Assembly (NCBI GenBank): GCA_021824175.1
Contig: JAKALP010000001.1
Location: forward strand, 248,001 to 312,000
DNA: 64,000 bases
From: Deltaproteobacteria bacterium
GTDB taxonomy: Bacteria; Desulfobacterota; Desulfobacteria; Desulfobacterales; Desulfosarcinaceae
Direction: 5' to 3'
The translations under genes and the position numbers were made by a program. Shown piece by piece: positions 8,016 through 11,161 of this stretch. The notes beneath the pieces are model-generated. The model did no database searches and was not told the DNA's origin. It worked only from the letters and a program-made list of their open reading frames with translations. Within the stretch, counting starts at the first letter, position 1, and the number at the start of each line of letters is the position of its first letter.

Positions 8016-8795
8016 TTAATCCTCGAGAATCGCCACCGGCCGCGTCCAACCGGCTGAGGCGTTTTTGATCTTAATGGGAAAGCAGGCTACTTTGAAACCA
8101 TAGGGTTTGGGAATCTGGTCCAGGTGAGCCATCTTTTCCATGTGGCAATACCCGCGTTCAATACCAGCAAAGTGGGCTTCCCAAATCACCGCAGGATCGC
8201 CTTTCTGTTGAAATTCCTGGGCCAGGAAAGGCAGGGGGCGGTCCCAGGACCAGGCGTCGATGCCCACAACTTTGATTCCACGTTCCAACAGATAGAGGGT
8301 CGATTCCCGGGTCATGCCCCCACCTTTGATCAGATATTCGGGTTTTCCCCAGGCGGCATCCGCTCCTGTGCGCACCAAAACAATATCCAACGGTTTTAGG
8401 GTGTACTGGAGGTAGGCTAATTTTTTCTCGACATCACGGGCGGTAATGCGTTCGCCATCCTTTTTGTCGCTGAAATCCAATAATACTCCGTCCTGAAAGC
8501 ACCACTCCAAAGGAATCTCGTCGATGGTCATGGCCGGTTTACCTTTGTCCATCTTGGGGTGGTAGTGAAAAGGGGCGTCCAGATGGGTGCCCGAATGGGT
8601 GGTCAGGGTAATCGATTCCACGGCCCAGCCCAAGCCTTCTGGCAGTTGTTCTTTTTTCAGGCCTGGAAAAAACTGAGTCATCTGTTCAGCTCCCTGGCTA
8701 TGGCTGGTGTATTCAATTTGAGGAATCATCATCGGGGGGTCGCTGGGCAGACCAGCTTCGATAGCTATGGATAGATCGATTATTTTTCTTCCCAT
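8016..8795 (-). CDS. Cyclase-family metal-dependent hydrolase (kynurenine formamidase-like)
   Basis: A 259-residue protein with HSGTHLDAPFHYH at residues 67-79, the metal-binding signature of the cyclase/KynB family (PF04199). The start has AGAGGAAAG in front. Members hydrolyse cyclic or linear amides such as N-formylkynurenine, isatin or barbiturates. No kynurenine pathway gene is nearby, so the substrate is unknown. The gene is monocistronic and convergent with miaA; no signal peptide is seen. Confidence 0.85.
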   Translation of the reverse strand: MGRKIIDLSIAIEAGLPSDPPMMIPQIEYTSHSQGAEQMTQFFPGLKKEQLPEGLGWAVESITLTTHSGTHLDAPFHYHPKMDKGKPAMTIDEIPLEWCFQDGVLLDFSDKKDGERITARDVEKKLAYLQYTLKPLDIVLVRTGADAAWGKPEYLIKGGGMTRESTLYLLERGIKVVGIDAWSWDRPLPFLAQEFQQKGDPAVIWEAHFAGIERGYCHMEKMAHLDQIPKPYGFKVACFPIKIKNASAGWTRPVAILED

Positions 8796-8998
8796 GGGCT
8801 TTCCTCTGATTAAGTGGTTGAACTGTTGATCGGTTGATGGGCGCAGAAGTTCGAGTGTACGGTGTCGTAGGAAACACTACCGGGGGCCATTGCGGGATGT
8901 CAAGCTCATATCCTTGCAATAAGGCCATTCAATCTTAGCTTAAAGACCTAATTGATGCGGGTAAACATAGGCAATTGGCACTAACCAGGGAGGAAAAA

Positions 8999-9463
8999 AT
9001 GACGCAATTAAAAAACAGCGACAAGGCTCCGGAATTTTCTTTGCTTGATCAAAATGGAAAGACGGTTTCGCTCAAAGACTACACCGGTCGCAGGCTTTTT
9101 ATTTACTTTTATCCCAAGGCCAACACTTCCGGGTGAACCGTACAATCTCAGGCGGTGCGGGACGCACTGCCCCAGCTCGATAAATTGAATGTCGCGGCCG
9201 TTGGTATCAGTCCGGACGATCCTGACGAACAGAAGAAATTTGACGAGAAGTATTCATTGGGGTTTCCGCTGCTAAGCGATCCGGACCACCGCGTGGCGTC
9301 CGCCTATGGTGTTTGGGGAGCCAAGGAGATGTTCGGCAAGATGATCGAAGGCGTCGTGCGTTCGGCCTTCCTCGTTGACGAATCCGGCAAGATTGCTAAT
9401 ACCTGGTATAAAATCAGCCCGAATGATACGGTGCCGGAATTAATGAAGGCATTAAAAAAGTAG
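8999..9463 (+). CDS. Peroxiredoxin (BCP/AhpC-TSA fold), selenoprotein (Sec46), cysteine-free
   Basis: A 154-residue thioredoxin-fold peroxiredoxin whose frame runs through a TGA at 9134-9136. The residues around it, PKANTSG-U-TVQSQ, align with the catalytic PxxxTxxC of BCP-type peroxiredoxins, so the peroxidatic cysteine is replaced by selenocysteine. The start at 8999 has GGGAGGA in front and gives MTQLKNSDKAPEF. The rest of the protein contains no cysteine, so it must be a 1-Sec enzyme that needs an external reductant. A strong SECIS-like hairpin follows the codon. It is the first gene of a probable three-gene unit with a 65-residue protein and a two-Sec glutaredoxin-like protein. Confidence 0.93.
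9151..9171 (+). promoter_or_regulatory. bSECIS-like hairpin for peroxiredoxin Sec46
   Basis: GGCGGTGC (9151-9158) pairs with GCACTGCC (9164-9171), eight pairs including one G-U, around the loop GGGAC. The loop begins 22 bases after the TGA and opens with G, as expected for SelB recognition. It is the best SECIS candidate in the window. Confidence 0.75.
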
Positions 9464-9577
9464 ACGAGCTTCTTGCACCGGAAAGTCAGATCAAAAACAA
9501 GGTGAATGCATATCGGACTTGAGGCAAGAAAGTATGGCTTGCATCACATGAACCGGGTGTTCTTAAGGGAGAAGAAT

Positions 9578-9775
9578 ATGATCAAGGTTAAGACATTTGC
9601 CAATACGTTGGAAATCTTTCATGCCCGCAAAGCCATGGAAGCACTGGATGAGGAAGTCAATGCCTTCCTGGAGCGGATTCAGGTCAAACGAGTGGTGTCG
9701 GTGTCCGATACCCACACCACGGATGGTAGCGGCGCCACCATCGGATTGATTCGGGTTGTCGCATATGAAATTTGA
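9578..9775 (+). CDS. Small conserved-looking protein of unknown function between two selenoprotein genes
   Basis: A 65-residue protein starting MIKVKTFANTLEIF, with AAGGGAGA just upstream of the start at 9578; a longer reading from 9506 has no ribosome binding site. The middle is charged and helical, and the end SDTHTTDGSGATIGLI then a short hydrophobic strand suggests a compact alpha/beta domain. It has no cysteine and no signal peptide. I do not recognise the family. Position, 114 bases after the Sec peroxiredoxin and 44 before the two-Sec protein, suggests a role with them. Confidence 0.75.
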   Translation: MIKVKTFANTLEIFHARKAMEALDEEVNAFLERIQVKRVVSVSDTHTTDGSGATIGLIRVVAYEI

Positions 9776-9819
9776 CGACGGACCAATTTTTTACATTCCA
9801 TATTCAGGACGATGATGTC

Positions 9820-10035
9820 ATGGCACATAAAATCATTATTTATGGTAAGGATGGCTGACCCCACACACACCGGGCCCGTGAGGCATTCGGCGAGCACGAG
9901 TACTTCGATGTGAGAAAAGACCCCAAGAGAATGGACGAGATGCTCAAGCTTTCCAATGGAATACGCAAGGTGCCGGTGATTGTGCAGGGGGCCGATGTGT
10001 CGATCGGTTATAAACGTGGCGCTTGAGGGGTGTAA
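9820..10035 (+). CDS. Glutaredoxin-like UXX-star family selenoprotein with two selenocysteines
   Basis: Reading two TGA codons (9856-9858 and 10024-10026) as selenocysteine gives a 71-residue protein ending at TAA 10033-10035. Sec13 sits in YGKDG-U-PHTHRAR, the CxxC position of glutaredoxins. KVPVIV near residue 50 is the cis-Pro motif of the fold, and DVSIGYKRGA leads to Sec69, followed by Gly-Val and stop. A C-terminal U-x-x-stop is the namesake feature of the UXX-star (seleno)protein family as I recall it. The start ATG at 9820 has AGGA about 10 bases upstream. Neither half shows up as a long open frame, so automatic callers would miss it. A likely role is thiol/selenol redox, perhaps reducing the upstream peroxiredoxin (inference). 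Confidence 0.92.
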
Positions 10036-10057
10036 AACCGGCCCGGGCGGCCGGTTT
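10035..10057 (+). promoter_or_regulatory. Hairpin after the two-Sec gene: SECIS for Sec69 and/or terminator
   Basis: AAACCGGCC pairs perfectly with GGCCGGTTT around the loop CGGGC. It starts at the last base of the stop codon. Its loop begins 18 bases after the second TGA and has G in its second position, so it fits a bacterial SECIS element lying in the 3' untranslated region. The run of T is only three bases, weak for an intrinsic terminator, but the structure may do both jobs. Confidence 0.6.
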
Positions 10058-10162
10058 CACCATGAAAGTATTTTCCTTCCAAATTATATTTACAAGCCAT
10101 CTCAAGAAAGTCTTTTGGCCCAAAATCTTTATTTTGAGATAGCTTGTAGTTACCGTTACAGA

Positions 10163-11161
10163 TTAATGATAGCCAGCTTCATCTTCGGCGACTTTTCCGC
10201 GGAATACCCAATAACTGTAGATGGTGTAGCCCAGCACAAACGGTAATATGCAGAGGGCGCCAATGAGGGTGATGATCTGGGTTTCGCGCTGTGAGGCGGC
10301 ATCGAAAATGGTGAGATCGGGCAGCACGGCGTAGGGGTAGATGCCGGACTGCAATCCCAAGTAGGCCGCGAAGAACATCACCAGGCATGAAGCAAACGGC
10401 ATCATTTCGCGTTTGGCTTTGATGCTTCTGAGCATCATGATAAAACCGATGGCGCCGGTCAGCGGGAAGAGCCACTCGAAATAGGCGCGCGGTGGGCTCC
10501 ACCAACGCTTCATGATATCGGGGGCTACAAAGGGGGTCCAGATGCTGACGATCAGCATGAAGGCGGCCACGGCCCACACCGAGGCCTTGGCCTGGAGATA
10601 GGCGCGTGCTTGAACTTCGCCAGTGGTTTTGATGATCAGATAGGCGGCGCCCAGCAAGGCATAGCCGGCGATCAGCGCCAGGCCTACCATGATGTTGAAG
10701 GGCGTCAGCCAATCAAATGCACCGCCGGCAAAATATCCATTTACTACCTTAATACCCGAAATGTAGGCCCCCAGGGTTAATCCCTGGGCAAAGGCGGCCA
10801 CAATACTACCGCCGAAGAAGGCACGGTTCCAGGCCTTGGTATGACTGGATTTGGACCGAAATTCAAAAGCCACGCCTCTGAAGATCAACCCGAAGAGAAA
10901 AGTAAACAGCGGAATGTACAGGGCGCTAAACAACACCGTGTAGATTTTGGGAAAGGTGGCGAACAGGGCCCCGCCGCCAAAGACAATCCAGGTCTGATTG
11001 GCGTCCCAGACCGGCCCAATCGTATCCATCATCACGTCGCGCTGCTTCTCATCCTTGGCAAAGGGGAACAAGATTCCCACCCCCAGGGTGAAACCGTCCA
11101 GAATGACGTAGAGAATGACCACCACTCCTACCAAACACATCCATAAATTAATCAAAAACAT
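10163..11161 (-). CDS. cydB: Cytochrome bd-type oxidase subunit II
   Basis: A 332-residue polytopic membrane protein with about eight to nine hydrophobic segments. MFLINLW...LDGFTLGVGIL and GPVWDANQTWIVFGGGALFATFP are hallmark CydB sequences. It pairs with CydA to form the quinol oxidase that reduces oxygen to water without pumping protons. The start has AAGGAC upstream. It lies 21 bases downstream of cydA on the same strand, so the two form an operon; no cydX-like small gene is evident. In a strict anaerobe this is an oxygen-defence or microaerobic respiration system. Confidence 0.95.
   Translation of the reverse strand: MFLINLWMCLVGVVVILYVILDGFTLGVGILFPFAKDEKQRDVMMDTIGPVWDANQTWIVFGGGALFATFPKIYTVLFSALYIPLFTFLFGLIFRGVAFEFRSKSSHTKAWNRAFFGGSIVAAFAQGLTLGAYISGIKVVNGYFAGGAFDWLTPFNIMVGLALIAGYALLGAAYLIIKTTGEVQARAYLQAKASVWAVAAFMLIVSIWTPFVAPDIMKRWWSPPRAYFEWLFPLTGAIGFIMMLRSIKAKREMMPFASCLVMFFAAYLGLQSGIYPYAVLPDLTIFDAASQRETQIITLIGALCILPFVLGYTIYSYWVFRGKVAEDEAGYH

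Follow-up and report, generated by a model that had tools for sequence, protein, structure and literature searches.

The Locus and Its Genes

The window (the whole 64,000-nucleotide stretch of DNA analyzed) holds a small gene at 9820-10035 on the forward strand (Table 1). The first-pass annotation had placed a 71-residue protein here, and both coordinates and length are exact when its two in-frame TGA codons are read. With TGA as U, the translation is MAHKIIIYGKDGUPHTHRAREAFGEHEYFDVRKDPKRMDEMLKLSNGIRKVPVIVQGADVSIGYKRGAUGV* (71 residues), with U13, U69 and a C-terminal end of U-G-V-stop. The gene had also been described as hidden from standard ORF calling, and translation table 11 indeed lists no ORF of at least 60 aa in that frame there; this concerns plain callers, and NCBI has a model for the gene (NF041114). 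A second selenoprotein gene, encoding a Sec-type peroxiredoxin, lies 357 bases ahead of it, and a small ORF without a Pfam family stands between the two. Two nearby genes on the opposite strand are presumably cydB and cydA (cytochrome bd). The context in the window suggests oxygen or peroxide defense.

Table 1. Features of the UXX-star locus and of the second UGA-decoding operon. L159 is G000:C22:169000-183000; other positions are those of the window unless a contig is given.
Feature	Position	Strand	Description
PrxQ/Bcp-type peroxiredoxin gene	8999..9463	+	NF006960 at 168.5 bits with TGA taken as U (cut-off 140)
TGA in peroxiredoxin gene	9134-9136	+	Residue 46, TSGU, peroxidatic position
Small ORF	9578..9775	+	65 codons, between both selenoprotein genes; no Pfam family
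AGGA, possible ribosome-binding site	9806..9809	+	Ahead of ATG; read by eye
UXX-star family 1 gene	9820..10035	+	71 codons + TAA; codons 13 and 69 are in-frame TGA
UGA-1	9856..9858	+	Predicted Sec13, motif U-P-H-T; TGA in 90/104, Cys in 14/104 genes
Candidate SECIS for UGA-1	9870..9890	+	Within the gene; GCC/GGC upper stem of 3 bp, 9874-9876 pairing with 9882-9884
UGA-2	10024..10026	+	Predicted Sec69, two codons ahead of stop; TGA in 104/104 genes
TAA stop	10033..10035	+	Ends frame of UXX-star gene
Putative SECIS for UGA-2	10035..10057	+	9-bp hairpin AAACCGGCC-CGGGC-GGCCGGTTT, starts at stop codon's last base
Second tRNA-Sec-like tRNA	C22:173696-173781 (L159:4697-4782)		RF01852 52.2 bits, UCA anticodon
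SelB2 (second SelB)	L159:4807-6729		3' of second tRNA
CysRS2	L159:6729-7985		After SelB2; 418 aa; TIGR00435 456.2 bits

A Member of UXX-Star Family 1

The first-pass annotation had assigned the product to the UXX-star family, and a search of the U-translated protein against the UXX-star models bears this out. The protein matches NF041114 of NCBIfam ("UXX-star selenoprotein family 1") at 102.7 bits (cut-off 72, E 9.3e-30), covering 1-70 of the 70 profile positions; the match, well beyond chance, spans residues 5-71 and thus runs across both TGAs to the final residue. The superfamily model NF041212 (72.4 bits, cut-off 66) and Pfam Glutaredoxin PF00462 (36.4 bits, cut-off 22.9) are likewise matched above their cut-offs. 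In six-frame searches of the genome, NF041114 scores the gene at 88.2, above cut-off; NF041212 reaches 58.5 over the stretch that it matches, under that family's cut-off because the match ends at the second TGA. The locus is therefore confirmed as a genuine member of an already described family.

The kind of protein and its double Sec are already in print. The family's entry in a 2026 review reads "Distant Grx-like protein 1 (UXX-star selenoprotein family 1)", with NF041114, motif UxxT and a number of Sec of 2 (PMC13188914), and refers to Zhang and Gladyshev 2008 (PMC2398784); the entry in an earlier review is UxxT, TIGR02196-like (PMC9312934). Two Sec in 71 residues is an unusual density, as first remarked, yet one common to the whole known family, in which TGA stands at both sites in 90/104 genes.

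Conservation of the Two UGA Codons

Among 395 genomes of the phylum, NF041114 scores above cut-off in 100 and gives a match at E≤0.001 in 207; control genomes gave a match in 7/14 and an above-cut-off match in 0/14. Every listed above-cut-off place was taken, giving 104 genes from 100 genomes, the window gene included; one relative, in a Desulfobacteraceae MAG, came from a search of genome contigs. Genomes with weaker matches lie outside a set picked by the NF041114 cut-off and forms without the second Sec may be missed, so that the frequency of tail Sec loss cannot be read from a set chosen with a model of the same family.

Site 1 is only ever TGA (90 genes) or Cys (14), and homologs ending at the first TGA, which would have spoken against the first-pass reading, are absent among the 104. 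Site 2 is TGA throughout and never TAA or TAG. Exactly two residues and then a stop follow site 2 in 91 genes, and this stop varies (TGA 49, TAA 23, TAG 19). A plain stop at site 2 would be expected to vary like the true one, yet site 2 never does. The second codon after site 2 has T at its second position in 91/91 genes and all four bases at its third, as in translated Val or Ile codons. Apart from the two sites, 92/104 genes encode neither Cys nor Sec.

Three in-frame UGAs are found in 42 of the 90 two-Sec genes, two of them predicted to be read as Sec and the third, 9 nt after the second, as stop. Of the 91 genes ending in U-x-x-stop, 49 have a further UGA as their stop, 9 nt after UGA-2, and TGA stops are not avoided (49/91, against 225 of 541 neighboring ORFs of at least 150 aa). 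A genetic code with TGA as Trp was considered and rejected: site 1 aligns with Cys in 14/104 genes, and TGA is an ordinary stop beside family members, in the same 225/541 ORFs. One genome (G367, contig C16, locus L129) carries two UXX-star genes in tandem, separated by about 425 bases; both have two TGA codons, and each has a hairpin of its own.

A Hairpin Starting at the Stop Codon

Bacterial SECIS rules as set out in the 2026 review ask for a stem of 4-16 bp, a loop of 3-9 nt with a G among its first two positions, and a distance of 16-37 nt from UGA (PMC13188914). The hairpin behind UGA-2 in the window falls within them, with 9 bp and a CGGGC loop (10044-10048) that begins 20 nt after the U of UGA-2. 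The region folds at -20.8 kcal/mol (40-base stretch), and 1/200 shuffles is as stable. Across the family, the case by folding energy alone is not overwhelming (mean z -1.25; 61% below -1).

Covariation in relatives is strong evidence. The unselected covariation alignment comprises all 99 de-duplicated genes, the window's included. It has six consensus pairs, each of which is formed in 86-94 of 98 sequences and by as many as five standard pair types. An alignment of 48 sequences (A2) was hand-picked from the 98 other de-duplicated genes, irregular ones being omitted and the window absent. In A2, 90.7% of cells are paired vs. 63.8% in shuffles (0/500 as high), sliding by 1-3 columns drops paired cells to 33-42%, and doubly changed cells number 107 vs. 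33 in shuffles; these figures are favorable because A2 was hand-picked, the unselected ones being those of the 99-sequence alignment and the 104-gene scan. All p-values are too small, owing to the relatedness of the sequences. A covariance model built without the window (R1) matches 10024-10065 at 28.5 bits (E 8.8e-5), the next best match in the window having E 1.5; in the whole genome the window copy is the sole match at E≤1 among the 150 scored of 2098 first-look candidates.

In the 104-gene scan, a hairpin scoring at least 12, with a G at one of the first two positions of its loop, is present at 89/104 UGA-2 sites, against 188/2080 random stretches and 17/225 TGA stops of neighboring genes. 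Loop starts cluster 20-23 nt from UGA-2 in 86/104 genes, the loops begin with G-rich motifs, and the median loop start is constant whatever the stop: 22 for TAA, 22 for TGA and 21 for TAG. An Rfam search of 8500-10500 gave nothing near a gathering score. There is thus good evidence for a SECIS for UGA-2 that begins with the stop codon's final base. This is new here, as are the three-UGA design and two points taken up below, a branch linked to arsenic and a second UGA system that casts doubt on Sec.

A Weaker Signal Inside the Coding Region

UGA-1 has a candidate SECIS within the coding region, with a CGUGA loop above its short stem and an outer CCG/CGG pairing across an internal loop. In the window, 189/200 shuffles of this region fold as well, and a hairpin scan of the window gene did not pick the candidate. 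The family mean z at the UGA-1 region is -0.37 in TGA genes vs. -0.15 in Cys genes. The 3-bp stem, 18-28 nt after the U, is formed in 70/90 TGA genes and 2/14 Cys genes, and the paired third codon positions (a synonymous pair) are complementary in 90/90 TGA genes vs. 8/14 Cys genes. Slight signs of selection on the RNA are visible in the codons after UGA-1. AGGUC, found in 29/90 genes, is the most frequent loop, and we take it to resemble that of E. coli fdhF. In the window member, this element is a likely but weak candidate.

Fold and Proposed Chemistry

A structure model made from a 42-row alignment (A1; pLDDT 92.7, pTM 0.80) has a glutaredoxin fold without the last helix. Foldseek ranks glutaredoxins first against it (3ic4, 7c10), with 4 matches at E≤0.001, and a profile search of PDB sequences again places glutaredoxins first. 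In the window protein, Thr occupies the place of the second Cys of CPxC. What, then, would resolve an intermediate formed at Sec13? Sec69 would be the resolving partner, since Thr replaces that Cys and 92/104 genes have no other Cys or Sec. In the plainest chemistry, Sec13 of the U-P-x-T motif would attack and Sec69, on a short C-terminal tail, would close a Sec13-Sec69 diselenide; relatives with Cys13 would form a selenenylsulfide in its place. Sec69 may then be the mobile second redox center that was first suggested.

On the decoding side, both UGAs would be recoded as Sec by canonical SelA, SelB, SelD and tRNA-Sec, UGA-1 being served by the short intragenic hairpin and UGA-2 by the hairpin that runs from the stop codon's last base into the 3' untranslated region. 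The Sec machinery would ignore the UAA stop, which is UGA in roughly half of the relatives, because only some 12 nt separate this stop from the loop of the hairpin, rather than some 21. Taken as a whole, it is quite probable that the gene encodes a 71-residue selenoprotein with two SECIS, canonical Sec decoding and a Sec13-Sec69 reductase activity. The role is likely that of a thiol-disulfide or diselenide reductase of glutaredoxin fold; in the open-access papers covered, no description of an activity for UXX-star family 1 was found.

Genomic Neighbors and an Arsenic-Linked Branch

Flanks of up to 4 kb were examined, with at least 3.5 kb on both sides for 74/104 genes. A conserved operon with the Sec-peroxiredoxin was rejected, as peroxiredoxin-like matches occur at 2 of the other 103 genes, both on the opposite strand; none of the other family members had the 65-codon ORF nearby. 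Ten genes form a long-tail branch, with 69-70 residues between the sites and an insert before the GGTU end. SBF/ACR3-like, ArsR-like or ArsP-like genes adjoin 9/10 of these vs. 4/94 short-tail genes. The neighbor names come from Pfam matches, one representative each, and the "ACR3" label is our assumption. Long-tail loci lie within L067-L158 (genomes G067, G131, G152, G183, G207, G229, G286, G324, and G097). Several of the long-tail genes have U-P-F/Y-C sites.

This association with arsenic-type genes, together with the ligand roles suggested for the UXX-star family in the 2026 review's treatment of it (PMC13188914), raises the possibility that the protein serves mainly to bind metals or metalloids (arsenic, mercury), its two Sec acting as a soft-metal clamp, and not as a reductase. 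However, the association counts few events because the 10 long-tail genes are related (two identical). Moreover, the window gene belongs to the short-tail branch, its neighbors are a peroxiredoxin gene and what we presume to be cytochrome bd genes rather than ars genes, and it has the fold and the U-P-x-T site of an oxidoreductase. We regard a mainly ligand-binding role as unlikely.

Selenocysteine or Cysteine at the UGA Codons

The window is G000:C10:248001-312000 of the host genome (6.07 Mb, 99.52% complete, 3.44% contamination), which probably belongs to a member of the Desulfobacterales. All its Sec genes score above cut-off: selA (620.3 bits), selB (379), selD (374.6) and a canonical tRNA-Sec (73.3). 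The first-pass annotation had named selA, selB, selC and selD as the genes to look for, with selB and selC as those whose absence would tell against it; all are there. There are two selD genes (contigs C22 and C51; loci L021 and L022) with one in-frame TGA each. Of the family genomes, 80 of 100 were searched for tRNA-Sec: 70/80 have a match of at least 58.8 bits and 3/80 have no match at 1e-7.

The host also contains a second set, comprising a tRNA with a UCA anticodon, a SelB paralog and a CysRS paralog (Table 1). The match of CysRS2 to TIGR00435 stops at 409 of 466 positions, and a DALR_2 match is present. SelB1 has wing_2 and wing_3 matches; SelB2 has no SelB-wing_2 match and a marginal wing_3 match, and may therefore have an RNA target different from that of SelB1. 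Upstream of the operon lies a gene that we take to be formate-dehydrogenase-like, and downstream are presumably HgdB/HgdC-like genes and a selD with TGA. The duplicate sel genes could be partly due to contamination of the MAG.

A set of this kind, with selC* tRNA-Cys, selB* and cysS*, is described in Desulfobacterales as Cys-charged (PMC7609411). The features given there for selC* are a UCA anticodon, U73, an A1:U72 pair and a 4-bp T stem with a bulged A, with selB* and a short cysS* lacking the anticodon-binding domain downstream (PMC7609411). The host operon agrees in its tca anticodon, the U before CCA and GGAGG against CCCC (both by eye), and the downstream SelB2 and CysRS, and differs in its first pair, where A1 faces C72 (by eye) instead of U72.

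Because the host has such a putative cysteine-type UGA-decoding operon, Sec at U13 and U69 is an inference. UGA could be read as Cys, always or under Se shortage, by the second set, with its Cys-type discriminator and shortened CysRS, and Cys is tolerated at site 1 in 14/104 genes. Cys is never found at site 2 (0/104), however, which suggests that it does not serve there; the prevalence of tRNA-Sec in the family genomes and the poor wing matches of SelB2 also speak against this reading, which we consider quite unlikely. A variant in which both UGAs become Sec or Cys by selenium supply, the two decoding sets competing for the same SECIS hairpins, seems very unlikely; if it were true, the protein would alternate between one form with a diselenide and another with a disulfide or selenenylsulfide. 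Sec rather than Cys is, on these sequence grounds, likely at both codons.

It is scarcely credible that the second UGA is a true stop and the strong GC-rich hairpin directly 3' of it a transcription terminator, a reading rejected because no terminator-like site with a T run was found in the region (0 sites), and contradicted also by a site 2 that stays TGA in all 104 genes while the stop two codons on varies, by codon-like variation beyond it, and by G-rich loops set at 20-23 nt in most genes.

Significance and Comparison With Known Systems

The gene offers a compact test object: its 71-residue product has two predicted Sec and is otherwise free of Cys, and its SECIS, a natural one, starts at the stop codon. 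The three-UGA genes (42/90) are a natural gauge of how exactly SECIS spacing selects a codon, and the host, with its coexisting Cys-type UGA system, lends itself to the question of what keeps the two kinds of decoding separate.

The arrangement at UGA-2 is the one that engineers built by hand for mammalian thioredoxin reductase in E. coli, where, as PMC11431864 describes for this construct, a SECIS placed after the stop codon works. Searches of open-access literature brought up this engineered case and no natural bacterial SECIS after a stop codon; in UXX-star family 1 the placement is natural and conserved. Mammalian thioredoxin reductase also has its Sec at the extreme C-terminus, although the two proteins are not homologous.

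Within its own family, the window protein shares with NF041114 the whole-length match, the U-P-x-T motif, the second Sec with U-x-x-stop and the count of two Sec, and differs in its tail, K-R-G-A-U-G-V against the usual G-G-T/S-U-G-V, while still lying inside the family. The HUGP/GUXX-star fusion and UXX-star families 2 and 3 (NF045501, NF041211, NF047338) share the superfamily model NF041212 with it, but the scores against them are far under cut-off (41 of 325, 46.3 of 100 and 45.7 of 97). Glutaredoxin 3, the YruB family and Clostridium oremlandii cGrx1 (7c10) have the same glutaredoxin fold and the same position of the catalytic Cys or Sec. The scores against Glutaredoxin 3 and the YruB family are under cut-off (TIGR02181 28.1 of 90; TIGR02196 34.6 of 88.55), and unlike all three the window protein lacks the second active-site Cys and, in the model, the final helix, and would have a C-terminal Sec instead. 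Compared with a classical GSH-dependent glutaredoxin, finally, it has U-P-H-T in place of C-P-x-C or C-P-x-S.
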